Part shown: positions 5,955 to 38,606 of the stretch, piece after piece
Layout: every line of letters begins with the position of its first letter
How positions within the stretch are numbered: the stretch's first letter is position 1
Source of the DNA: Candidatus Magnetaquicoccus inordinatus
GTDB lineage: Bacteria > Pseudomonadota > Magnetococcia > Magnetococcales > Magnetaquicoccaceae
NCBI RefSeq assembly: GCF_004217665.1
Contig: NZ_RXIU01000002.1
Location: 7,769 to 59,662 of the forward strand
DNA: 51,894 nt
Direction of reading: 5' to 3'
Program-made: the position numbers and the translations under genes
Notes under the pieces: generated by a model
The model's database searches: none
What the model was told of the DNA's origin: nothing
The model's input: only the letters and a program-made list of their open reading frames with translations

Positions 5955-8504
5955 ATGAACCAGAATTTGATCGCCTCCTCCCGTTGGCAACTGCTGCGGG
6001 ATTATACCCCGCCGCCCGGCTACGATGAGATTCTCCTGGCCAATGGGGAGGTACGCCCTGATTGGTCAATGCTCTTGAACCATCTCAACCAACTGGGCGA
6101 ACAACGTCTGGAGTCTCTGCGTCAACAGGCCAGACACCTGCTGCGCGAAAATGGCCTCACCTTCAATCTCTTCCAAAGCGAAAATGGTGACAGTCGCGCC
6201 TGGGATCTCGATCTGCTCCCCCTGCTCCTCGCCGAACAAGAGTGGCTGAACCTGGAGCAGGGGCTCAAACAGCGCCATCGGGTGTTGGAGATGCTTCTGG
6301 CCGATCTTTACGGCAAACAGGAGACCCTGCGCCATGGCATCATCCCCCCCACTCTGCTCTTTTCCGATCCCGGCTATCTGCGCGCCTGTCATGGCCTGCC
6401 CCATCCCCGTGGTGCTCTGCTTCCATGGTGGGCAGTCGATCTGGTCCGTACCCCTCAAGGCTCCTTCCAGGTGGTCGGCGACCTCCTGCAAACCCCCAGC
6501 GGTGCCGGTTATGCCCTGGAAAACAGGCAAATCCTCTTCCGCCTGCTGCGCCAACCTCTGAACGAAAATCGTGTGCGCCTGCTTTTGCCCTTCTTCTCCG
6601 CCTTGCGCACCCATCTCAACGATGCCAGCCCCCTGCTTAAGGAAGATCCGCAAATTGTCCTGCTCACCCCGGGACCAGGAGAAAAAATCTATTTTGAACA
6701 TGCCTTCTTGGCCAATTATCTGGGTTTGACCCTGGTGCAAGGCGAAGATCTGACCGTGCGTACTGGTCGTCTGCATATCAAAACCCTGGATGGCCTGCAT
6801 CCGGTCGATGTGGTCTGGCGCATGCTCAACGATCTGCAATGCGACCCCCTGGAGCTCAATGAAAGTGGCTTCCTGGGTGTGGCCGGACTGGTCCAGGCGG
6901 TGCAAGGGGAACGGGCCGCCGTGATCAACCATCCCGGTGCCGCCGTCTTGGAAAATCGTGCCCTGCTGGGATATTTTCCCGCCATCTGCCAACATTTTCT
7001 CGGCGAATCTCCCCGTCTCGCCGTTACCTCCACCCGCTGGTGCGGCGACCCGGTCGCCCGTGCGGAAATTCTCGATACCCCTGAGCAATGGCTCTTGCAG
7101 CATCGTTCGCATCCCAGTCGCCCCACCATCAATCCCAGAACCTTAACCCGCGAGCAACTGCAAAAAGAGATCCAAAATTATCCACATGAATGGATCGCCA
7201 CCCCCCCCATTGTCCCCTCTACCCTGCCGGTCATGACCGCCATGGGGGTCCGCCCCGGACATGTCATCCTGCGCACCTTTGCCACTGCCGGTCGCTTGGG
7301 CGTGGAGGTGATGCCAGGCGGTTTGGCACGGATGATCACCGAACCCGAACAGATCCACACCTTCGATGATCCCTCAGGAATCACCAAAGATGTCTGGGTC
7401 ATCTCGCACAATCAGGTGGTCACGCGCACCAACCGCATGCCCATGGAACGGCTCTCTGAACCCTCCATCTTCAGCGGTGACATCTCCAGCCGGATGGCAG
7501 AAAATCTTTTCTGGGCCGGTCGATATGCCGAACGCGGCGAATATACCTTGCGTCTGTTGCGCATGCTCTTGCTGCTACCCCGCCCAGAAGGCAACGAACA
7601 GGGTGAAAATGCTGAACTGGATGCCATGCGCCTGCTCTATAGCGCTCTTACCCAGGTAACTGCCAGCGAACCCGGTTTTACAGGAGAAGGAGCCGAACAG
7701 CGCTTTTGCAATCCCGAAGAGGAGTTTCGCTCCTTGATCGTGGCACAAGATCGCCCAGGAAGCCTCTACTCCTCCATCCGCGCACTGCTATTGGCTGCGC
7801 ACCGGGTGCGCGAACGCCTCTCCAATGACACCTGGCGCGTCCTTAATCAACTGATGGCCCTGCACCAAAGTCTGGGCCGCCATAAACTGACCGCCGATAT
7901 GGTCGGGGAGATGGAAAGCCTGATTACCGCCTTTGCCGCCCTTGCCGGTCTGGCCCAGGAAAATATGACCCGTGGCCTTGGTTGGCGTTTTCTTGATCTG
8001 GGACGACGGGTAGAACGGGCCATCTATCAGGTAGAGCTGTTGCGGGCAACCTTGATCCGCCCCCTGTCGGCAGAAGGGGAACGTTTTCTGCTCGATGCCC
8101 TTCTCAGCATCAGCGACAGCAGCATCACCTATCGCCGCCGCTATCGCACCCATTTGGCCATTAAACCTTTTCTGGAATTGATTCTGCTGGATGAGACCAA
8201 TCCGCGCAGTCTGGCCAGTCAATTGGCCCTCATGAACGAACATGTGGCGGCTCTTCCCTATCGTCGTCCCACCCCTCCACATCGCACCCCATGTGGTCGC
8301 ATCGCCATGGAGAGCTTCAGTGCTCTGCGCATGGCGGAACCGGATCTGCTCGGCATGGTCGGCGAAGCCGGGGAATACAGCAATCTTGCCGCACTCTTGG
8401 AACGCTTTCAGGGATTGTTGCCTCTCTTCTCCCTGGAACTGGCCCACACCTTCTTTCAGCACTCCTCTTCCCGCTCCCTGGGAGGAGGCGCCCGTGAATT
8501 ATGA
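5955..8504 (+). CDS. fused circularly permuted ATP-grasp / alpha-E protein
   Basis: This 849-residue protein starts at the ATG at 5955, just after the upstream tandem stops; the frame is open further upstream, but that part overlaps the preceding gene. Residues 1 to about 480 align by eye with the ATP-grasp protein at 779-2230, and residues from about 500 with the alpha-E protein at 1-777 (ISSRMAENLFWAGRYAERGE). The ATP-grasp half is degenerate: the acidic EDN triplet is VGDLLQTPSG here (about residue 175), and the KPxxxSGGYG loop is replaced by unrelated sequence near residue 377. Such fusions are a known subfamily and may all be divergent. It overlaps the next gene by ATGA. It could be a non-catalytic partner or act on another ligand. 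Confidence 0.88.
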   Translation: MNQNLIASSRWQLLRDYTPPPGYDEILLANGEVRPDWSMLLNHLNQLGEQRLESLRQQARHLLRENGLTFNLFQSENGDSRAWDLDLLPLLLAEQEWLNLEQGLKQRHRVLEMLLADLYGKQETLRHGIIPPTLLFSDPGYLRACHGLPHPRGALLPWWAVDLVRTPQGSFQVVGDLLQTPSGAGYALENRQILFRLLRQPLNENRVRLLLPFFSALRTHLNDASPLLKEDPQIVLLTPGPGEKIYFEHAFLANYLGLTLVQGEDLTVRTGRLHIKTLDGLHPVDVVWRMLNDLQCDPLELNESGFLGVAGLVQAVQGERAAVINHPGAAVLENRALLGYFPAICQHFLGESPRLAVTSTRWCGDPVARAEILDTPEQWLLQHRSHPSRPTINPRTLTREQLQKEIQNYPHEWIATPPIVPSTLPVMTAMGVRPGHVILRTFATAGRLGVEVMPGGLARMITEPEQIHTFDDPSGITKDVWVISHNQVVTRTNRMPMERLSEPSIFSGDISSRMAENLFWAGRYAERGEYTLRLLRMLLLLPRPEGNEQGENAELDAMRLLYSALTQVTASEPGFTGEGAEQRFCNPEEEFRSLIVAQDRPGSLYSSIRALLLAAHRVRERLSNDTWRVLNQLMALHQSLGRHKLTADMVGEMESLITAFAALAGLAQENMTRGLGWRFLDLGRRVERAIYQVELLRATLIRPLSAEGERFLLDALLSISDSSITYRRRYRTHLAIKPFLELILLDETNPRSLASQLALMNEHVAALPYRRPTPPHRTPCGRIAMESFSALRMAEPDLLGMVGEAGEYSNLAALLERFQGLLPLFSLELAHTFFQHSSSRSLGGGAREL

Positions 8505-13700: not shown

Positions 13701-13781
13701 GGTCTGCTGCTCTCGCAATTTTTGACCCTCTACCTGACACCGGTCATCTATCTTTATTTGGAACGGTGGCAGAAGCGTTGA
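10701..13781 (+). CDS. RND efflux transporter permease (AcrB/MdtB-MdtC type)
   Basis: A 1026-residue inner-membrane proton-driven RND pump. The N-terminus (PELCIRRPVMTILVMFAIFFFG) and the SELPNVDFPTIQVNADFPGA motif are typical of the MdtB/MdtC branch. The proton-relay residues are present: paired aspartates in GFVVDDAIVMLEN in the fourth membrane helix and the lysine in GIVKKNAIMMIDF in the tenth. Two periplasmic docking/porter loops sit between helix sets as expected, and length is normal. It is co-transcribed with the adaptor upstream. Its 3' end overlaps the convergent AlbA-type gene by 38 bases. Substrate is unknown. Confidence 0.95.
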   Translation: MNLPELCIRRPVMTILVMFAIFFFGSVAYKDLPMSELPNVDFPTIQVNADFPGANPETMATAVATPLEAQFAGIAGLDSMTSVSAQGNTRITLQFLLDRNIDAAAQDVQSAIAAAMRNLPAEMNNPPSFRKTNPADLPIFYVALYSLTLPLPIVNEFAETKLGQRLSTIPGVAQVQVFGSQKYAVRIRAKPEKLAAMGLTLADVQTAIQGANVNQPTGRLDGPVRTYPIQADGKLENAAAYHSIAIAYRNGAPVRLHEVAEAIDGVENDKVAGWFRSHRGIVLAVQRQPGTNAVATVDAIRKMLPSFMSSLPSAIHLEILYDRTISIRASVAEVQFSLLLAALLVVLVIFLFLRNLSSTLVPGLAMILSVVGTFAAMRMLGFSLNNLSLLALTLSVGFVVDDAIVMLENIMRHLEQGKTPWEASLIGAREIGFTILSMTLSLVAVFIPLLFMGGIMGRLLHEFSLTICVAILVSGFVSLTLTPMLCSRLLRPHKGFEENQQHRPLDRFFAILEQGFNLLLEGYRRSLHFAMRHPRWMLFSLLATLLGSAFLYTILPRDFIPTGDSGQIIIFNEGPEDASFASMVTHQRAVAAIVEQEPAMESYMSFVGPGGPKSTSNSGRIFLRLKPLNERSESAETIMRKLRQQLTSITGFKSFLQIPPPIRIGGQLTSAQYQYALQHTDLDQLYEWTDRFVSQLKKEPGIQDVTSNLSLNTPTLMIRIDRDKCSALGITVAQVEDALGAAYGARQISTIYGAANQYAVILEVNREAQNNPEDIQQLYLRNRNNELVPLATVVNIEQKRDSLTVNHLGQMPSATLSFNLAPGFALSHAVEFIRKAYDTLQPPIGLVGSLQGAAQAFESSWQGMGQLLLIALVVVYIVLGILYESFRHPLTILSGLPSAGVGALLTLWIFKVDLSFYAFVGVVMLIGIVKKNAIMMIDFALEMQRQQQSSAEEAIVQAALIRFRPIMMTTMAALMGTLPIAIGSGYGSEARQPLGLAVVGGLLLSQFLTLYLTPVIYLYLERWQKR

Positions 13782-15807
13782 CCAAAGCGGCTCTCCCACT
13801 ATCCAAGCGTTGCAACGATTCCAGGAATCGAGACTCTTCCGGCATCAACTCCACCGCTTTTGCAAAAGCGTTGCGAATATCATGACTGTTCATCTTGCAC
13901 CATTTTAATACTTGACCCAAATCATGCCAAGCCCAGGCATGTCTGGCACGTGGGGCATCCATCTGTATGATGCGCTGCAGCATCTCCCTGGCTTCATCCA
14001 ATAATTTACGGCTGGCCGACATTTGTCGAAAACCAGGTTTGTTTTTTGTACGACCTCCACTCCGTTCATCGTGCCATGCTTTGGCTGCCAATCTCATCTT
14101 TACTTGGGCAAACTCATGCAATGCCTTTACGTCCTGCATAACCTGTTCGCCTGTCAACGAAAAATATCGGTGTGCCCGCTCATAACGCCCAGCACGTTTT
14201 TCCTGAATGGCGGCCTCAAACGCTTCATCCGTATTGGGTAGTTGAGACAACCGATCCAGCCATATCCTCGCTTTCTCCTGTTTTCCCCGGTCCAGATAAG
14301 CCGTTGCCATCAGGATGATCAATGATGTGGTCGAATTGGGATTGGCCCGTGCAAACTCTTCGTAAAGCGTTTCCGCTGCATACAAATCATCCTGCGCAAT
14401 CCATGTCCGAACCAACTCCATAGCCAAACCGAGGCTTGAGGGTGATTTTGCTAACGCCTCTTGCAACTCTTGCAAAGCCCCGTGATAGTCCCCAACAACC
14501 CGCAAATAAGCAATATTCTGCAACACCAAAACGGTCTGATATTCTGGATGAACAGGTAAAGTAACCCGCAGATAGGTGCGATTCTCATCAAAATCAAAAC
14601 GCGGTGGGCCTGACCCATTTTGGCGCATCACTCGTCTCAGCTTGGGAATGCCCGTACCTCGCCCTTCAGCCAGACCCAAATCTTTTAACAACTCACCAAT
14701 ACGCCGGTTGCGCGCCGAAACGGGAGGCAAGGAGATCTCTCCTGACAGATGGTGCATCTCTATTCCCGGTAACGGACCGGGATGACTGATTATCTCCATT
14801 CTGTCGGGAAAAAGGTAAACTTTGCTAGGCTCCAGAATGTGCTCCTTCTCATAGGAGCGGTGATAAACAGCGTTGACCAAAGCTTCTCGTACTGCCGGAA
14901 TGGGATAATCCAACCAACGCGAAGCTTGAAATGAATTCGATAATTTTTTGGTTAAACGACCAGACAAACTTTCCAGATAAGCAAGACAGGCTCGAAGTTG
15001 TTCATGAATTGGTTGCTTGGCAAATATGCGCTCCGCCAGTACATCACCAGATTTATCGGTCGCAGCAAACTGTACAACCTCAATACGGGCACCTGGAAAC
15101 CAAAATCCAGGATCCTGACTGAAAAACAGCAAACCAATATTTTTCGGAACATAATGACTATTCACTGCTTCAACAATGCGGAAATGTCGATAAAGTCGTC
15201 CAGTATCCAGTTCATCAGCCAATTCACTTCTTACTTCATGCAAAAATTCTCGCACTTTGCTTTCACGAATATCCGACACCTCCGCTTGCAAGGCTCTTCG
15301 GTCATCAAAGGGAACCTGAGCAGTCATTTGCAATAACTGAGTCTTTAAGACAGGCTTGGAATCAGCATCTATCGTGCTTGAAGCAATGCGAATATAAAAT
15401 TTTCTGGTTGATTTGTTTTCATTCGATTCTGGGGCTGAATGGGGACGTTGATTACTCCCTGGCGCCCACAAAACCAGAACATGCTTATTATCAATTATTT
15501 CTGGTGAAAACACTGGATAATATACCGGATCTATACGGTTGCATCGTCCACGAATCCACTTTTCAGCTTCTTCCAACTCCTTAGCTGTCAACCCTTTGGC
15601 TGGCAAGAGAGCCTTACCATTTTCTTCTGCTACACCAATCACAATGTAGCCACCGTTGACATTTTGAAAATCATTGGCAAAAGCGCACAAAGTGCGGATC
15701 ACCTGTAATCCGGTACTCTCTTCATCCCAGGATGCTTTGAATTCCACTCGAAGAGATTCCATCCTGAGCAGAATATCATGAACATTGCATGGTAATGATG
15801 AAGTCAT
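13744..15807 (-). CDS. AlbA_2/Schlafen-type ATP-binding protein with C-terminal TPR region
   Basis: A 687-residue protein. Residues about 15-140 form an AlbA_2 (Schlafen-like, formerly AAA_4) domain: ESLRVEFKASWDE, then NVNGGYIVIGV. Residues about 290-420 match the HATPase_c_4 module often annotated RecG-like, with REALVNAVYHRSY and GLAEGRGTGIPKLRR. From about residue 430 to the end are TPR-like helical repeats (NIAYLRVVGDYHGALQELQEAL; LYEEFARANPNSTTSLIILMATAYLDRG). It is not a helicase. The 5' two thirds are visibly AT-richer than neighbouring genes, suggesting transfer. An internal Met at residue 16 is an alternative start; neither has a strong ribosome binding site. Such proteins are suspected regulators or defence factors, but no role is established here. 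Confidence 0.85.
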   Translation of the reverse strand: MTSSLPCNVHDILLRMESLRVEFKASWDEESTGLQVIRTLCAFANDFQNVNGGYIVIGVAEENGKALLPAKGLTAKELEEAEKWIRGRCNRIDPVYYPVFSPEIIDNKHVLVLWAPGSNQRPHSAPESNENKSTRKFYIRIASSTIDADSKPVLKTQLLQMTAQVPFDDRRALQAEVSDIRESKVREFLHEVRSELADELDTGRLYRHFRIVEAVNSHYVPKNIGLLFFSQDPGFWFPGARIEVVQFAATDKSGDVLAERIFAKQPIHEQLRACLAYLESLSGRLTKKLSNSFQASRWLDYPIPAVREALVNAVYHRSYEKEHILEPSKVYLFPDRMEIISHPGPLPGIEMHHLSGEISLPPVSARNRRIGELLKDLGLAEGRGTGIPKLRRVMRQNGSGPPRFDFDENRTYLRVTLPVHPEYQTVLVLQNIAYLRVVGDYHGALQELQEALAKSPSSLGLAMELVRTWIAQDDLYAAETLYEEFARANPNSTTSLIILMATAYLDRGKQEKARIWLDRLSQLPNTDEAFEAAIQEKRAGRYERAHRYFSLTGEQVMQDVKALHEFAQVKMRLAAKAWHDERSGGRTKNKPGFRQMSASRKLLDEAREMLQRIIQMDAPRARHAWAWHDLGQVLKWCKMNSHDIRNAFAKAVELMPEESRFLESLQRLDSGRAALVNASATVPNKDR

Positions 15808-15856: not shown

Positions 15857-17188
15857 TTATAACATTTCCCCTATTATTTCCTGCCTTTCGGCATCATATC
15901 CGCGAACCATCACCTTGTAAAGCGCTCCGTTATGTACATTCTCGGCAACGCGAAAGCGCACTGGCAAAAAGCCGGCACTTTTGCCACGGGCTATGCCCTC
16001 GCTGCACTGCTCCACCAGCACCTCCTCACGACAACCTAATCTCTTCTGGGCCTGCAGCGGCAAACGCCCAGCAGCCCATTGGCGCAAGCTCTCGGCACGC
16101 CGCTTGATCTCCCTTTCGGCAACCCGAAAACGTCCAGGAATCGCCGAAGCCGGAGTACCAGGCCGATCGGAATAACGGAAGACATGCAAAAAGGTGACAT
16201 CGATCTCCTCCAGCAAAGCCAGACTCTGCTGATGCGCCGCACTGCTTTCGGTGGGAAAACCGGCAATAAGATCTGCACCCAACAGCAGATCGGGAACCCG
16301 TTCGCGCAAACGCGCCACCCTATCGATCACCCAAGCTCGACCATAGCCGCGCCCCATGCGTTTCAAAATACGCTCATCCCCCGACTGCAGCGACAAATGC
16401 AGATAGGGACACAATCCCGATCCCTCGGCAAAAGCGGCCAACACGCTCTCATCCAGATCCAGAGGATCAATGGAAGAGAGTCGCAACCGACTCTCCCCAC
16501 GCTCTTTGGCCAACAAGGTCAGCAATTGCCCCAAACCGATACCAGAAGAGAGATCCCGCCCATAGCTACCCAGATTAATCCCGGTCAACACAATCTCCCG
16601 GTATCCATGTTCACGAAAACGCGCCACCTGGGCCAATAAATATTCGGGAGCAAAGGAGCGGCTTGCCCCTCGCAATGCCGGAATCGTACAAAAAGTACAA
16701 CGACGATCACAACCATCCTGCACCTGCAAAAAGGCTCGACTGCGCTCGGCAAAATGGTCCACCAAGGCTATCTCATCCTGCTGAGGACGCTCGGCAATGG
16801 CCGCGACATGCACCTGCGCAGGCGCCCTGACCACATCTTTTTGCGCCGCAGTTGCGCTCTGTGGCAGTTGTGCAAGATACTGCCATAAACGCTCCTTTTC
16901 CCCATTTCCCAGCACCAAAACCACACCATCCAACGCTGCCAATCCCGCCGCATCGGCCTGGGCATAACAACCCGTCACCACCAAGCCAGCTTGCGGATGT
17001 TCACGCGCCAAACGACGAATCAGTTGTCGCGCTTGACGATCACTTTCCGAAGTCACCGAACACGTGTTAATAATGAGTAGATCAGGTGAGTGATCCCCCT
17101 GCAGCGGAAAATAGCCATAACGCGCACCTGAATGCGATAATCGTTCTGTTTCCACTTGATTGACCCGGCAACCCATGGTCACCACCAT
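15857..17188 (-). CDS. mtaB: tRNA t6A37 methylthiotransferase (MtaB-like)
   Basis: This radical SAM methylthiotransferase adds a methylthio group to t6A37 of tRNA. The N-terminal cluster-binding cysteines are in MGCRVNQVE, INTCSVTSESD and VTGCYAQ. The radical SAM motif CDRRCTFC is near residue 160, and the TRAM domain is C-terminal (EEVLVEQ... to YDAERQEIIGEML). I start it at the ATG at 17188, giving 443 residues beginning MVVTMGCRVNQ as in the family; a longer frame to 17332 would run over the divergent gene and has no family match. Only 24 bases separate this start from that of the CCA-family gene. MtaB rather than MiaB or RimO is favoured by the motif spacing (moderately sure). Confidence 0.9.
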   Translation of the reverse strand: MVVTMGCRVNQVETERLSHSGARYGYFPLQGDHSPDLLIINTCSVTSESDRQARQLIRRLAREHPQAGLVVTGCYAQADAAGLAALDGVVLVLGNGEKERLWQYLAQLPQSATAAQKDVVRAPAQVHVAAIAERPQQDEIALVDHFAERSRAFLQVQDGCDRRCTFCTIPALRGASRSFAPEYLLAQVARFREHGYREIVLTGINLGSYGRDLSSGIGLGQLLTLLAKERGESRLRLSSIDPLDLDESVLAAFAEGSGLCPYLHLSLQSGDERILKRMGRGYGRAWVIDRVARLRERVPDLLLGADLIAGFPTESSAAHQQSLALLEEIDVTFLHVFRYSDRPGTPASAIPGRFRVAEREIKRRAESLRQWAAGRLPLQAQKRLGCREEVLVEQCSEGIARGKSAGFLPVRFRVAENVHNGALYKVMVRGYDAERQEIIGEML

Positions 17189-17212
17189 GAAATAGCGGGC
17201 AGGAGAGGTCGA

Positions 17213-18679
17213 ATGACCAGCAACATCCAGGATCTGTTTGCCCCTTCCATCCAATCCCTGCTGAATAAACTCAATATGCTGATCGGTCCGATCTATCTGG
17301 TCGGTGGCACCGTGCGCAATATGCTCGATCATAAACCCCTCGCCAATGAACTCAATTTATTGGTGCAACGCCCTTTGCCAGAGTGCTTTGATCTCCTGCG
17401 CGAAGGGGGCGGCTCCTTTCTCACCCTGAACACCAAACAGCACAAAGTCTGGACCGCTGGTTACAGCAGCCTGATTTTGCCACTCAAAAAGGGCAACGCT
17501 GGAGAAACGCTGCATCCCGATGATGAAATATTCCACTTTGCCATGCCCCTGTCGCACATCGAAATTGCCACCTGTCGCCACCGACCCGACCGGGAAGCCA
17601 CCATCGAAGAGGATCTGCTGCATCGCGATTTGACAGTCAATGCCATGGCCTTTGCCTGGCCAAACGGTCCCCTGATTGATCCTTTTCATGGCAAAGAGGA
17701 TTTGGCACAACGCCGTATCCGTCTGGTCAACGGGATCACCTCCCTGGAAGATGATCCACTGCGTGCCCTGCGCTATTTTCGTTTTCTCCTGCAGCTCGAA
17801 GGCAGCAGCGATGAACGCGAAAGAGATATGGCCTCGGAATATTCCTTGGAATCAATACCTCCCAAAAAACTGCGTGCCGAACTGGACCGCTTTTTTTCCC
17901 TCTCCTTTTCAGGAACGGCACGACAAAAAATTGTCCATGATTTTTTCTACTCGCCGCTGGCCCAGGATATCTTTTCTGATATGGCCACACCTCCCATCTG
18001 CAACAGCGGCGCCACCCCTGCCCATCGCTGTCGTTGGGCGATTCAGGTCATGAGCGAAATCAGCGAACCAGAAGCCGATGAGATCATTCCCTGGCATGAT
18101 CTGCGCTGGACAGCCATGTTTTATGCCATGGGCGAACTCAATTGCATCGCCAGAGAAAAAGGCCACACCCGCTCCGCCCTGCATGGCCTCTCCACCCGAA
18201 AAATTCAAGAGATTCTGAAACAATTCCGCTTCTCGCAACGACGACAACAACATATTTTTCAAATGCTGCAGCACATGGACTCCTCCCTGGTTCCAACCGA
18301 TCGGACCTTAACCCGTCTCATGCACCAGGGTATACCCATTCCTGGCCTTTTCCGCCTGGTGCATGCTCTGCAGAGCGCACGCGCAAAAGAGCCAAACCAA
18401 CCAACGGAGATTGATACACCACAAGGCTTGGACAAACAACTGGGCCGCGTCTTGAACCGCTACCGCAGTTTGCAACAGGCCACACAGCGTCTGCAACCCA
18501 AAGATTTGGCCATCTCCGGTGGGGAAATACTCGATCTGGTGCGCCTGCCGCAAGGGGAGTGGATGCGTGAGTTAATCGATGAATTATTGGCCTGGATCAG
18601 TCAGGATCGTACCCGTAATCAACGAGCCATGCTGTATGATAAAATCCGTGAGTGGATTGCCAACGGCAACCGTTATTAA
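17213..18679 (+). CDS. CCA-adding enzyme / poly(A) polymerase family protein, catalytic DxD lost
   Basis: A 488-residue class II nucleotidyltransferase-family protein started at the ATG at 17213, which has AGGAGAGG upstream. Family landmarks are clear: YLVGGTVRN (residues 28-36), SHIEIATCR, the HRDLTVNAMAF motif, LIDPFHGKEDL and LEDDPLRALRYFRF. The key difference is the metal-binding DxD after the GG motif. The family has GGxVRDxLLGxxxxDxD; here residues 35-48 read RNMLDHKPLANELN, so both catalytic aspartates, and the Asp after Arg, are gone. The glutamate in IEIAT is kept. The protein may still bind tRNA or nucleotide but should not polymerise. No HD motif was recognised in the C-terminal half. 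It could be a regulator or structural paralogue, with the functional CCA enzyme elsewhere. Confidence 0.85.
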   Translation: MTSNIQDLFAPSIQSLLNKLNMLIGPIYLVGGTVRNMLDHKPLANELNLLVQRPLPECFDLLREGGGSFLTLNTKQHKVWTAGYSSLILPLKKGNAGETLHPDDEIFHFAMPLSHIEIATCRHRPDREATIEEDLLHRDLTVNAMAFAWPNGPLIDPFHGKEDLAQRRIRLVNGITSLEDDPLRALRYFRFLLQLEGSSDERERDMASEYSLESIPPKKLRAELDRFFSLSFSGTARQKIVHDFFYSPLAQDIFSDMATPPICNSGATPAHRCRWAIQVMSEISEPEADEIIPWHDLRWTAMFYAMGELNCIAREKGHTRSALHGLSTRKIQEILKQFRFSQRRQQHIFQMLQHMDSSLVPTDRTLTRLMHQGIPIPGLFRLVHALQSARAKEPNQPTEIDTPQGLDKQLGRVLNRYRSLQQATQRLQPKDLAISGGEILDLVRLPQGEWMRELIDELLAWISQDRTRNQRAMLYDKIREWIANGNRY

Positions 18680-32670: not shown

Positions 32671-34035
32671 ATGAATGAGCCGTTATCCAATGCCCTACCC
32701 CAAATCACCGCCGAAATTCCGCCTGATCCGCTGCACGAATCGCCAAGCACTTCCTCCCAGCCACGCAAGCACTCTGGACAAGGCAGATCTGCACGAGGAG
32801 AGGGACAGCCGAACAAAGAAGGAGGCCCGCAACGTAAAACAGCTAAACTGGTGGGCGTGCGTGTGGACTCCTCGGGCATGGTGTACCGTTTTCTCTCTAC
32901 CTTAAGAGAGATCAAAAGCGGTGACCTGGTCTATTTGCACGGCAAAGAAGAGGAGATCCTGGCGCAAGTTCTTTTTGTCGTGGAGGCACAACCGGGGGAC
33001 AATCTCCAGGAGCGCCTCTATACCGGCAGCTTTGATAAAATTGGTCGCATTCTCAGCGCCAGCGAAAAACAGTTTGTTGCCGAAAAAAGCTCTCTGGAAC
33101 AAAAAGCCAAGCAGCTCTGTCGAAAATATATGCAGGATCTGCAGTTGGAAATGCGCCTTTCCCATATCCACTACCAACCGGGTGGCAACCGGATTATCGT
33201 CTATTTTACGGCAGAAAATCGGGTGGATTTTCGTGAATTGGTGCGTCTCTTGGGAACGCAACTCAAAGTGCGGGTGGAAATGCGCCACATTGGTGTCCGC
33301 GATGAAACCAAGCTGTTGGGAGGAATGGGTCTGTGCGGGCAACCATTTTGCTGTGCCTCTTATCTGAAACGGTTTCATCCGGTTTCCGTGCGCATGGCAA
33401 AAAACCAGGAACTCTCCTTAAATCCAGAAGGAATTTCCGGCACCTGTGGTCGCTTGCTCTGCTGCCTGGAGTATGAAAACAGCACCTATCAAGCGTTGCG
33501 AGAGGGGATGCCGCGCTTAAAACAGATGGTACAAACCAACGATGGCCGAGAGGGAGTGGTACAAGCCATTCATCCTCTGACTGAAACGGTGGATCTGCAG
33601 CTTGCCGATGGCAACCGGCTTTGTGTAGCGCGTTGTGATCTTTGCCTCAAGCAACAACCCCCTCCAGCCACTGAGGAAGAGGAGAGCCTCAACCTCGAAG
33701 AGGAGGAGATTTTTCGCGAGGAGTTGCCAGCCGCCACTCCTCCCCAGCAAGGAGCAGAGCGCCGCCCGGCCGAGACCAGGCGTCAGCAACCGCGTCCCCA
33801 CTTGGCAAAACGGGAGAATCAACGCGAGCGCCCCAACAGTCGCAATCAGGCTGCTGCAATGACGCCAGACCAAACCGTGGCGGCGGTCGCCGAAACAAAC
33901 CCATCTGGAAGCAGCACCCAAACAGCAGCAGAGTCCAACCCTGAGCCGACAGCAGTGGGTACGCCGCCACAAACCCGCAAACGTCGGCGCCGCCGCCGTG
34001 GCCCCCCACCTGCGGAAACAAAGGAGACAGCATGA
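32671..34035 (+). CDS. PSP1 domain protein (RicT/YaaT-like) with basic C-terminal tail
   Basis: A 454-residue protein. The PSP1 domain (about residues 60-290) has the signature cysteines GLCGQPFCC and GTCGRLLCC, which in the Bacillus homologue bind Fe-S clusters. The start at ATG 32671 has AGGA upstream; a TTG two codons earlier is possible. Unusually, about 130 residues follow the domain: an acidic stretch, then a Gln/Arg/Pro-rich low-complexity tail ending in a run of arginines (RKRRRRRRGPPP), reminiscent of RNA-binding tails. RicT acts with other factors on RNase Y-dependent RNA processing in Bacillus; here an RNA-related role is inference. Its stop overlaps the next start by ATGA. Confidence 0.88.
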   Translation: MNEPLSNALPQITAEIPPDPLHESPSTSSQPRKHSGQGRSARGEGQPNKEGGPQRKTAKLVGVRVDSSGMVYRFLSTLREIKSGDLVYLHGKEEEILAQVLFVVEAQPGDNLQERLYTGSFDKIGRILSASEKQFVAEKSSLEQKAKQLCRKYMQDLQLEMRLSHIHYQPGGNRIIVYFTAENRVDFRELVRLLGTQLKVRVEMRHIGVRDETKLLGGMGLCGQPFCCASYLKRFHPVSVRMAKNQELSLNPEGISGTCGRLLCCLEYENSTYQALREGMPRLKQMVQTNDGREGVVQAIHPLTETVDLQLADGNRLCVARCDLCLKQQPPPATEEEESLNLEEEEIFREELPAATPPQQGAERRPAETRRQQPRPHLAKRENQRERPNSRNQAAAMTPDQTVAAVAETNPSGSSTQTAAESNPEPTAVGTPPQTRKRRRRRRGPPPAETKETA

Positions 34036-35501
34036 GCAGCCATTCACATCACACTCAGCACAGTGCAAGCAGTTCCTTGCACACCGATAGCCTTTTTGCC
34101 GACAGCCATGCCCATCTCGATTTTCCCGATTTTGCTGCCGATCAAGAGGCTGTGCTGCAGCGCGCCCATGCTGCCGGAGTCAATTGGATCACTACCATCT
34201 CCACCCGTCTCACCACCGTTGCCAATCTGCTGGCGATATGTGACCGCTATAACAACGTGGCAGCCAGTGTCGGCATTCATCCCCATTATGCCGCAGAAGA
34301 GCCGGAAAGCTCTGTGGAGGCGATTGTCGCTGCCGGCAACCATCCACACATTATCGCGGTGGGCGAAACCGGCCTGGATTATCACTATCTCTACAGCCCT
34401 GCCGAGCAACAGGAGCAGGTGTTTCGCAATCATATCCAGGCCGCCAAAATTCTCGATCTGCCTCTGATTATCCATACCCGCGAGGCAGAGGCAGATACCC
34501 GCCGGATCGTGGAAAGTGAGGGCCTGCCAGCAAAGGGGGGTGTTTTGCACTGCTTTACCGGCTCCCTGGAGATGGCCGAATGGGCGATACAACAAGGGCT
34601 GCATATCTCCTTTTCCGGCGTGCTCACCTTCAAAAGCGGGGATGCTCTGCGGCAAATTGCCCAGCAACTGCCTTTGGATCGTCTGCTGATTGAAACCGAT
34701 GCCCCCTATTTGGCTCCCATGCCCCATCGAGGCAAACGCAATGAACCGGCCATGGTGGTACGTATTGCCGAAACCCTGGCCCATCTGCATGGACTCCCTT
34801 TGCAACAGGTGGCCAGCATCACCACCCAAAATTATCTGCGCCTGTTTCGTCCTGATGAACTGGCAAAAATTCTCAGCCCAGCACCCGCAGTCATGGCGCC
34901 ACAACCACCAACGCTCGCCTATGCAATCGGCTCCGGTCTTTATCTGAATATCAGTAAAGGGTGCACCTTGCGCTGCCACTTTTGCCCCAAATGGGTTGCC
35001 CCGGTCGTGCACCAGTATGATCTTACTCTGCCACGCAACCCCACTGCAGAGGAGATCCTGCAAGCCATGGGTGACTATTCCGCCTACCAGGAAATTGTCT
35101 TTTGCGGCTATGGAGAGCCCACCTTGCGCCTGCCGGTCCTGCTGCAGGTGGCACAGGCCATCAAACAACAGTGCGCGATTCCCATCCGCATCAATACCGA
35201 TGGGCTGGCCAATCGGGTCTATCGCAGCGACATCACCCCCCGTTTACGCGGTCTGATTGATGCGGTTTCCGTCTCTCTCAATGCACAAAATGAAGAGATA
35301 TACAATCGCCATAGCCGACCAACCGTTCCCGGTGCCTATCAAGCAGTCAAAGATTTTTTACTCGCCGCCAAAGCCCATATTCCCTCGGTCACCGCAACCG
35401 CCATCGAAGGATTGGAGGGGGTGGATATAAAGGCGTGTGCAGAGATCGCCCACCAATTGGGAGTCCATTTTCGCAAACGCATTCTCAACCAGGTCGGCTG
35501 A
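34032..35501 (+). CDS. TatD-family nuclease fused to TatD-linked radical SAM domain
   Basis: A 489-residue two-domain protein. Residues about 17-275 are a TatD metal-dependent nuclease with the metal ligands in DSHAHLDF, GETGLDYHY, IIHTREAEA, LHCFTGS and ETDAPYLAP. Residues about 295-489 are a short radical SAM domain with CTLRCHFC (C311, C315, C318) and GYGEPTLR, matching the radical SAM family usually encoded next to or fused to TatD. The two activities have no known joint substrate. The nuclease half may act in DNA repair or RNA/tRNA turnover. It is coupled to the PSP1 gene by an ATGA overlap. Confidence 0.93.
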   Translation: MSSHSHHTQHSASSSLHTDSLFADSHAHLDFPDFAADQEAVLQRAHAAGVNWITTISTRLTTVANLLAICDRYNNVAASVGIHPHYAAEEPESSVEAIVAAGNHPHIIAVGETGLDYHYLYSPAEQQEQVFRNHIQAAKILDLPLIIHTREAEADTRRIVESEGLPAKGGVLHCFTGSLEMAEWAIQQGLHISFSGVLTFKSGDALRQIAQQLPLDRLLIETDAPYLAPMPHRGKRNEPAMVVRIAETLAHLHGLPLQQVASITTQNYLRLFRPDELAKILSPAPAVMAPQPPTLAYAIGSGLYLNISKGCTLRCHFCPKWVAPVVHQYDLTLPRNPTAEEILQAMGDYSAYQEIVFCGYGEPTLRLPVLLQVAQAIKQQCAIPIRINTDGLANRVYRSDITPRLRGLIDAVSVSLNAQNEEIYNRHSRPTVPGAYQAVKDFLLAAKAHIPSVTATAIEGLEGVDIKACAEIAHQLGVHFRKRILNQVG

Positions 35502-37400: not shown

Positions 37401-38606
37401 ATGGATAATCGTTCAGGTATTTCAGGTTTGGTCAAATCAACTCTGTTCAGCGACGCCACCGACCATTCACACCATGCCGAAAACAGACCTATTGTGGTCA
37501 CTGTATCCCGCGAATTTGGCTCCAATGGCGGTAAAATTGCTGAGCTGTTGGCCGAACAGCTCCATGTTCCCTGCTATGGTTATTCCATGATCGATCAGCT
37601 TGTGCAAACCAGCCATACAACCAACAAGCTGATCTCCCTGATGGATGAAAAGTTGCCACGCGCCATCGATGCCTTTTTATATTCGCTGTTTATTGAACCA
37701 GAGCAGTCGGTTGCCGGCTATTATAAAAATTTGATCAAGGCGGTAAATCGCATCGCCCAAACAGGAGGAGTCATTCTCGGTCGCGGAGCACGCCTGATCT
37801 TGGCCGATCACCCCCATGTCTTTCGGGTGCGCATTGAAGGATCGCGCGATATTTGTATCCAGCGCATCGCCCAACGCGAAGGCATTACCACCGATGCGGC
37901 CAAAGAGAAACTTCTCTCCATTGAAAAAGAGCGCAGTCGCTTTCTCAAAGGTCTCTACAAACGCTTTCCCAACCGGCGCACCTACTATGATCTGGTCATC
38001 AACTCCGACCGCATCGAACCTCTGCGCGTTGCCGCGGTCATTGTGCAGGCCATGGAGGGAATGGGCTTTCTGAAGACTCAAAAATCAAGCTTGCCTGAGG
38101 CAGCTCCGCTACACCATGCGCCGCTCGCCACTCCCCCTGTCAGCGCCGAACAGACACACTTTCGGGTCTTGCAACCCGGTTTGCATTTTTTAATTGTGGA
38201 AGATGAACCAGAGTTTGTCGAATTGGTCCGTGGCTGGCTCAACAACCCGTCCAGCAACAAAGATTCGGCACTGCGCATGCCCTCCTTGACCCTGACCCAT
38301 GCCGCCACTTTTCGCGAAACAGAACAACGACTGGCGGAACAACATTTTGATCTGATTCTTCTTGATCTCAATTTAAGCGACAGTCATGGCTATGAAGAGA
38401 CCTTCGGACGACTGAATCAAAAACATTTGGAAACCCCGATCATCCTCTTTACCGGCATTGACGATGAACAAAAAGCGATTCAATCGGTTGATGAGGGTGC
38501 ACAAGATTATCTGGTAAAAGGACAGATCACCAGAAAAACTCTGGTCCGCTCTATTCGCCATGCCCTCTCCCGTTATCGGATTTTGAAGGGCTGTCAACAC
38601 AAGTAA
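37401..38606 (+). CDS. cytidylate-kinase-like domain fused to a response-regulator receiver
   Basis: A 401-residue protein. Residues about 30-220 match the cytidylate-kinase-like family (Cytidylate_kin2): P-loop-like TVSREFGSNGGKIAELLAE, VILGRGARLIL, a basic RDICIQRIAQREG region and KERSRFLKGLYKRF. After a linker of about 35 residues, residues about 260-395 form a receiver domain with acidic VEDEPEF, phospho-acceptor D322 in LILLDLNLSD, threonine in LFTGIDD and lysine in YLVKGQ. All switch residues are intact. Receivers usually carry DNA-binding or enzyme outputs at the C-terminus; a nucleotide-kinase-like N-terminal partner is unusual. Start: ATG at 37401 behind GGAGAG. A lone receiver and a PilZ gene follow. 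Real substrate unknown. Confidence 0.9.
   Translation: MDNRSGISGLVKSTLFSDATDHSHHAENRPIVVTVSREFGSNGGKIAELLAEQLHVPCYGYSMIDQLVQTSHTTNKLISLMDEKLPRAIDAFLYSLFIEPEQSVAGYYKNLIKAVNRIAQTGGVILGRGARLILADHPHVFRVRIEGSRDICIQRIAQREGITTDAAKEKLLSIEKERSRFLKGLYKRFPNRRTYYDLVINSDRIEPLRVAAVIVQAMEGMGFLKTQKSSLPEAAPLHHAPLATPPVSAEQTHFRVLQPGLHFLIVEDEPEFVELVRGWLNNPSSNKDSALRMPSLTLTHAATFRETEQRLAEQHFDLILLDLNLSDSHGYEETFGRLNQKHLETPIILFTGIDDEQKAIQSVDEGAQDYLVKGQITRKTLVRSIRHALSRYRILKGCQHK

Follow-up and report, generated by a model that had tools for sequence, protein, structure and literature searches.

A degenerate class II tRNA nucleotidyltransferase paralogue of Magnetococcales, retained beside mtaB as a probable pseudoenzyme

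The stretch of 51,894 nucleotides from Candidatus Magnetaquicoccus inordinatus analysed here (the window; positions 7,769 to 59,662 of contig NZ_RXIU01000002.1, assembly GCF_004217665.1) encodes, divergently from the tRNA modification gene mtaB, a homologue of class II tRNA nucleotidyltransferases in which the catalytic site is incomplete. This paralogue of the canonical Cca enzyme occurs in 47 of 48 Magnetococcales genomes, the exception (G004) being 75% complete, and the gene is under purifying selection while its catalytic residues vary. Taken together, the comparisons across the order make it probable that the protein is an order-wide pseudoenzyme, retained for binding tRNA or other RNA as a scaffold or regulator.

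Reading frame and family assignment

17213..18679, + strand: degenerate class II tRNA nucleotidyltransferase paralogue, 488 amino acids; PF01743 and PF13735 above cut-off; orthologues in 47/48 Magnetococcales; ratio of nonsynonymous to synonymous substitution rates (dN/dS) 0.04-0.18

The frame runs from an ATG at 17213, preceded by GGAG, to a stop codon at 18677-18679 and contains zero internal stops. The poly A polymerase head domain PF01743 matches the window protein with 47.9 bits (cut-off 23), which places it in the superfamily, and is likewise matched by 30 of 30 orthologues (set A2). PF13735 (tRNA_NucTran2_2), a match to the body and tail that would hold the tRNA acceptor/T arm, scores 33.8 bits (cut-off 27) over residues 326-476 and is found in 22 of the 30 orthologues at an E-value of 0.001, the G037 protein lying below the cut-off. 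By its PF01743 head and PF13735 tail, the window protein is thus assigned as a class II tRNA nucleotidyltransferase homologue. More specific assignments fail: the best NCBIfam CCA equivalog model (PRK13299) reaches 85 bits against a cut-off of 290, and the PcnB model TIGR01942 reaches 41 bits against 306.

The catalytic site of the window protein

Class II enzymes possess three catalytic carboxylates (PMC3925840), and Escherichia coli Cca is inactivated when both aspartates are changed to alanine (PMC11784652). The corresponding regions of the window protein, together with its tail, are the following:

17303..17320, + strand: first half of motif A, residues 31-36, GGTVRN (canonical GGxVRD); N36 also in canonical relatives with intact DxD
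17345..17356, + strand: metal site, residues 45-48, NELN; profile alignments match E46 to the first and N48 to the second catalytic Asp, the latter being Asp in every one of 46 canonical proteins
17558..17578, + strand: strand with the third acidic position, residues 116-122, IEIATCR (E117, by alignment)
17621..17650, + strand: motif B, residues 137-146, HRDLTVNAMA (canonical RRDxTxNAMA); R138, D139, N143 and A144 invariant in 46 orthologues
17750..17785, + strand: motif C/D, residues 180-191, DDPLRALRYFRF; base-templating D181 and R184 retained; altered in the sister genus
18485..18676, + strand: tail, residues 425-488; L432, G436, G437, G448, W450, N469 and W481 invariant in the 46-orthologue comparison; PF13735 match 326-476

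An earlier note, made from the DNA letters of the window, had described a CCA-enzyme-like protein without its catalytic aspartates, and the residues on which it relied, namely the GGTVRN and NELN substitutions and the retained IEIATCR, HRDLTVNAMAF and LEDDPLRALRYFRF motifs, read as it stated. Its direct comparison of NELN with DxD needs correction. In an ungapped alignment N45 and L47 lie opposite the two catalytic aspartates; profile alignments with solved CCA enzymes and with two sets of canonical relatives introduce a one-residue insertion, which brings E46 to the first and N48 to the second position. Instead of [D/E]-x-D after GGxVR, the window protein reads E46-x-N48. Since the third acidic position aligns with E117, the claim that the catalytic carboxylates are gone holds for the second aspartate but is overstated with regard to E46 and E117. 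Moreover, the EDxxR templating motif preserves D181 and R184, with D instead of E as its leading residue.

The weight of the individual substitutions follows from 46 canonical relatives, in which the first catalytic position holds Asp 32 times and Glu 14 times and the second is invariably Asp (46 of 46). N36, counted in the earlier note as a catalytic loss, was dropped as a lesion, because two alphaproteobacterial-type canonical relatives (OG_L147 and OG_L149) also read VRN instead of VRD despite an intact DxD. As canonical relatives share N36 and 14 of 46 have a first-position glutamate, N36 and E46 are, by this comparison, tolerated states, neither of them disabling alone. By the same comparison N48 is the telling lesion, a state shared by no canonical relative, and we infer that asparagine at the second position would by itself affect activity.

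Erosion of the site across the order

A scan of named genomes yielded a single close relative, Magnetococcales bacterium YD0425bin7, whose copy is 75% identical; residue comparisons across the order were based on 46 full-length paralogue copies. Within the genus, all six orthologues carry GGTVRN plus E-x-N or E-x-T, hence the substitutions are shared by homologues in related genomes, a point that the earlier note had proposed to check. Members of the sister genus lack the GG and R of motif A as well as the templating Asp of motif D and have Thr at the first acid (VGEAPLCGI...NTLEILV, ...QNPLR). Among the sister-genus orthologues L018-L028 the motif A region is almost constant, as either VGEAPLCGI or VGDAPWCGI, which may reflect a new constraint at the former active site.

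None of the 46 copies unites GG, R, first acid, second Asp, third acid and motif D, and the lost elements vary by lineage. In 39 of the 46 copies Asn, Thr, Ala, Gly or Glu stands in place of the second Asp, and six have lost the third acid; in the E-x-D lineages, to which the single-contig genome G037 belongs, the third acid is replaced by Asn, Gln, Ser or His. All three acids are retained only in G033, whose GG is GE. Parsimony requires at least five changes at the second Asp, at least four at the third acid and at least six at the second Gly. The canonical Cca of the same order never departs from GG, R, D and the second Asp. Such lineage-specific losses in a retained gene are, as far as sequences can tell, the pattern of lost catalytic constraint, and they support the pseudoenzyme reading: the substitutions of the window protein are common to its same-genus orthologues and the site is eroded order-wide.

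Alternatively, the paralogue could still catalyse nucleotidyl transfer through an altered or slow site, performing limited A- or C-addition or using another acceptor and holding its metal via E46, E117 and perhaps another residue. In accordance with this, a glutamate at the first position is found in 14 of 46 canonical proteins, G033 retains D-x-D together with the third acid, motif B is preserved, as is motif D in most lineages, and G025, which is 99% complete, has no other family member that was found. Nevertheless, activity is unlikely given that the second Asp, unchanged in every canonical relative, is replaced in most paralogues, that most copies retaining it are without the third acid, and that the sister genus has lost GG, R, first acid and template Asp together.

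Selection and retained residues

Relative to near relatives, dN/dS of the paralogue is 0.04-0.18 and in most pairs below that of the adjacent mtaB. Invariant in all 46 copies are R138, D139, N143 and A144 of motif B, the IDPFxGxxDL stretch, R190, R221, E223, D225, R298, W299, R343 and R344 as well as the tail residues G436, G437, G448, W450, N469 and W481. Ranked by entropy, the catalytic columns are middling and motif B is invariant. Judged from these substitution patterns, the gene is functional.

A decaying pseudogene, or a sequencing or assembly error, would account for the missing catalytic residues, and yet has next to no probability: the frame is open in every orthologue found, the residues in question are common to same-genus orthologues from independent assemblies, and the low dN/dS together with order-wide retention rules out decay.

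Origin of the paralogue

In a tree of 101 proteins, the 46 paralogues group together (support 100) at the end of a stem about 2 changes per site long, in keeping with vertical retention, and the Cca of the same genomes stands on a different branch, together with gammaproteobacteria-like Cca. The family profile was run against 398 Pseudomonadota genomes, where 30 Magnetococcales are hit at E < 1e-170 and the best of the other 368 reaches 4.5e-25, the level of ordinary Cca; none of these 368 sampled genomes outside Magnetococcales has a paralogue at comparable score. Therefore, within the genomes sampled, the paralogue looks like an innovation of Magnetococcales.

Canonical Cca in the same genomes

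A second family member is present in 41 of 48 Magnetococcales genomes, and the 35 that were read are all intact, with GGxVRD and [D/E]xD. The intact relative which the earlier note had proposed to look for is thus carried by same-genus and same-order genomes, though none was found in the assembly of the window itself. As an additional observation, G035 (6% contamination) has two separate canonical-type matches, G035:C42 and G035:C61, besides the paralogue.

The presence of both proteins in these 41 genomes would also suit an inactive subunit or regulator of canonical Cca or of another RNA enzyme, acting through protein-protein contact and not through RNA binding of its own, and the invariant residues in head surface, neck and tail could serve such a contact. 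This arrangement is rated as quite unlikely, since G025 has the paralogue with no Cca detected and the loci read showed no linkage between the paralogue and cca.

Pairing with mtaB and the genomic neighbourhood

15857..17188, - strand: mtaB, t6A37 methylthiotransferase, divergent neighbour; TIGR01579 430 bits, cut-off 357; head-to-head in 46/47 loci
17189..17212, no strand: 24-base gap between both start codons; equal length in all six same-genus loci

The gene starts 24 bases from mtaB, whose start lies at 17188 on the minus strand; the divergent layout described in the earlier note recurs in 46 of 47 loci (42 of 43 in one set, plus four more). Spacing is 24 bases in the six same-genus loci and mostly 78-175 in the others. 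From its family name, MtaB is taken to methylthiolate t6A37 in tRNA, which makes a joint tRNA role of the two proteins plausible from gene order. A more specific version, in which the paralogue would be a dedicated non-catalytic tRNA-binding factor working with MtaB and hence a bacterial counterpart of yeast Utp22, is offered tentatively; presenting or checking t6A-tRNAs for ms2t6A37 formation, or sensing CCA-less tRNA in order to regulate mtaB, are examples of what this might involve.

Divergent head-to-head layouts are common among regulators, and motif D is retained in most lineages, so that, instead of binding tRNA, the protein might sense nucleotide (ATP/CTP) or regulate mtaB at the level of transcription or translation. 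This is very improbable, given that a domain scan of the window protein found no DNA-binding domain and that the template Asp is lost in the sister genus.

Adjoining mtaB at 13744-15807 (- strand) lies a gene for a 687-residue protein with Schlafen/AlbA_2 and RecG-C-like domains followed by TPR repeats, which was not seen beside mtaB in other genera within the short flanks read. A defence-system role of the paralogue received no PADLOC match. Farther along the window, a TatD-type DNase domain (residues 24-273) is fused in one frame to a radical SAM domain (306-471) at 34032-35501 (+ strand), and a cytidylate-kinase-like domain is fused to a response-regulator receiver domain at 37401-38606 (+ strand).

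A non-catalytic role and the evidence against it

The pseudoenzyme reading can be put as a sequence of steps. A class II tRNA nucleotidyltransferase would have entered the lineage by acquisition or duplication before Magnetococcales radiated, and its metal and nucleotide site, required in full for nucleotide addition, would subsequently have become incomplete, CCA repair being left to the intact Cca. What was retained would be a protein that still folds and binds tRNA, by its acceptor/T arm, or tRNA-like RNA, and perhaps nucleotide. Lacking polymerase activity, as seems probable, it would most likely serve tRNA maturation or surveillance as an RNA-binding scaffold, chaperone or regulator, perhaps in concert with MtaB, the product of the divergently paired gene.

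Several observations weigh against this interpretation. E46 and E117 are still acidic and the D181/R184 template is preserved, so the window protein may have kept residual nucleotide binding or slow chemistry. AlphaFold, run on the window protein and one orthologue (L042), gave no reliable structure (mean pLDDT, the predicted local distance difference test score, 34.9), and the model was kept out of structural alignment and fold search. With addA lying downstream in part of the loci, the pairing with mtaB may be plain synteny. Furthermore, G025 was found to contain the degenerate paralogue only, with no canonical Cca found, and neither the family model nor a same-genus Cca protein detected an intact second Cca in the assembly of the window. 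The latter absence carries little weight, because the assembly consists of 546 contigs and has 33 tRNA genes, compared with 44-48 in three same-genus genomes; short of about a quarter of its tRNA genes, it most probably misses Cca through an assembly gap, and a genome truly devoid of Cca was set aside on the same count despite the negative same-genus query. In addition, CCA is encoded in all 33 tRNA genes whose ends were inspected; Cca would thus serve for repair here, and losing it would not have to be fatal.

Comparison with known systems

Catalytically dead homologues of CCA enzymes seem to be uncommon: the open-access literature searched yielded no account of a bacterial tRNA nucleotidyltransferase that has become a pseudoenzyme, although one may exist elsewhere, and the sole example to come up was Utp22, which is eukaryotic and class I-like. 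An order-wide class II case in bacteria, with an intact paralogue in most genomes and an erosion that can be traced by lineage, offers a clean system for asking what role CCA-enzyme folds assume after polymerisation ends and whether recognition of the tRNA 3' end is coupled to modification of the anticodon loop. It also constitutes a warning for annotation, as the paralogue would be labelled a CCA enzyme or poly(A) polymerase on domain matches alone and would pass for cca wherever an assembly lacks the true gene.

Among characterised proteins, the class II CCA enzymes without an HD domain (Planococcus halocryophilus, 6ibp; Geobacillus stearothermophilus, 1miv; the alphaproteobacterial type) resemble the paralogue in the PF01743 plus PF13735 composition found in the window protein, in head and neck regions alignable by profile over about 200 residues, and in a related C-terminal tail motif. 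The paralogue differs from them by the replaced second catalytic Asp, the one-residue insertion in motif A, the change of RRD to HRD and its long separate stem. The canonical Cca of the same genomes, of the Escherichia coli type with an HDxGK region, belongs to the same superfamily and is alignable in motifs B, C and D, yet shares 22-25% identity with the paralogue, has an intact GGxVRD and [D/E]xD and features a different C-terminal half. PcnB, the bacterial poly(A) polymerase, is a further member of the superfamily to which the paralogue shows a weak TIGR01942 match, far below the cut-off and, unlike PcnB, with a catalytic site that is not intact.

Yeast Utp22 combines a class I CCA-enzyme-like fold with degenerate catalytic acids and serves in ribosome synthesis without polymerase activity (PMC3794860). 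Whereas Utp22 is eukaryotic, of class I and an intramolecular dimer bound to Rrp7, the paralogue is bacterial, of class II and single-module; Utp22 would hence be its closest functional analogy in the sense of a likeness of fate, not of membership.
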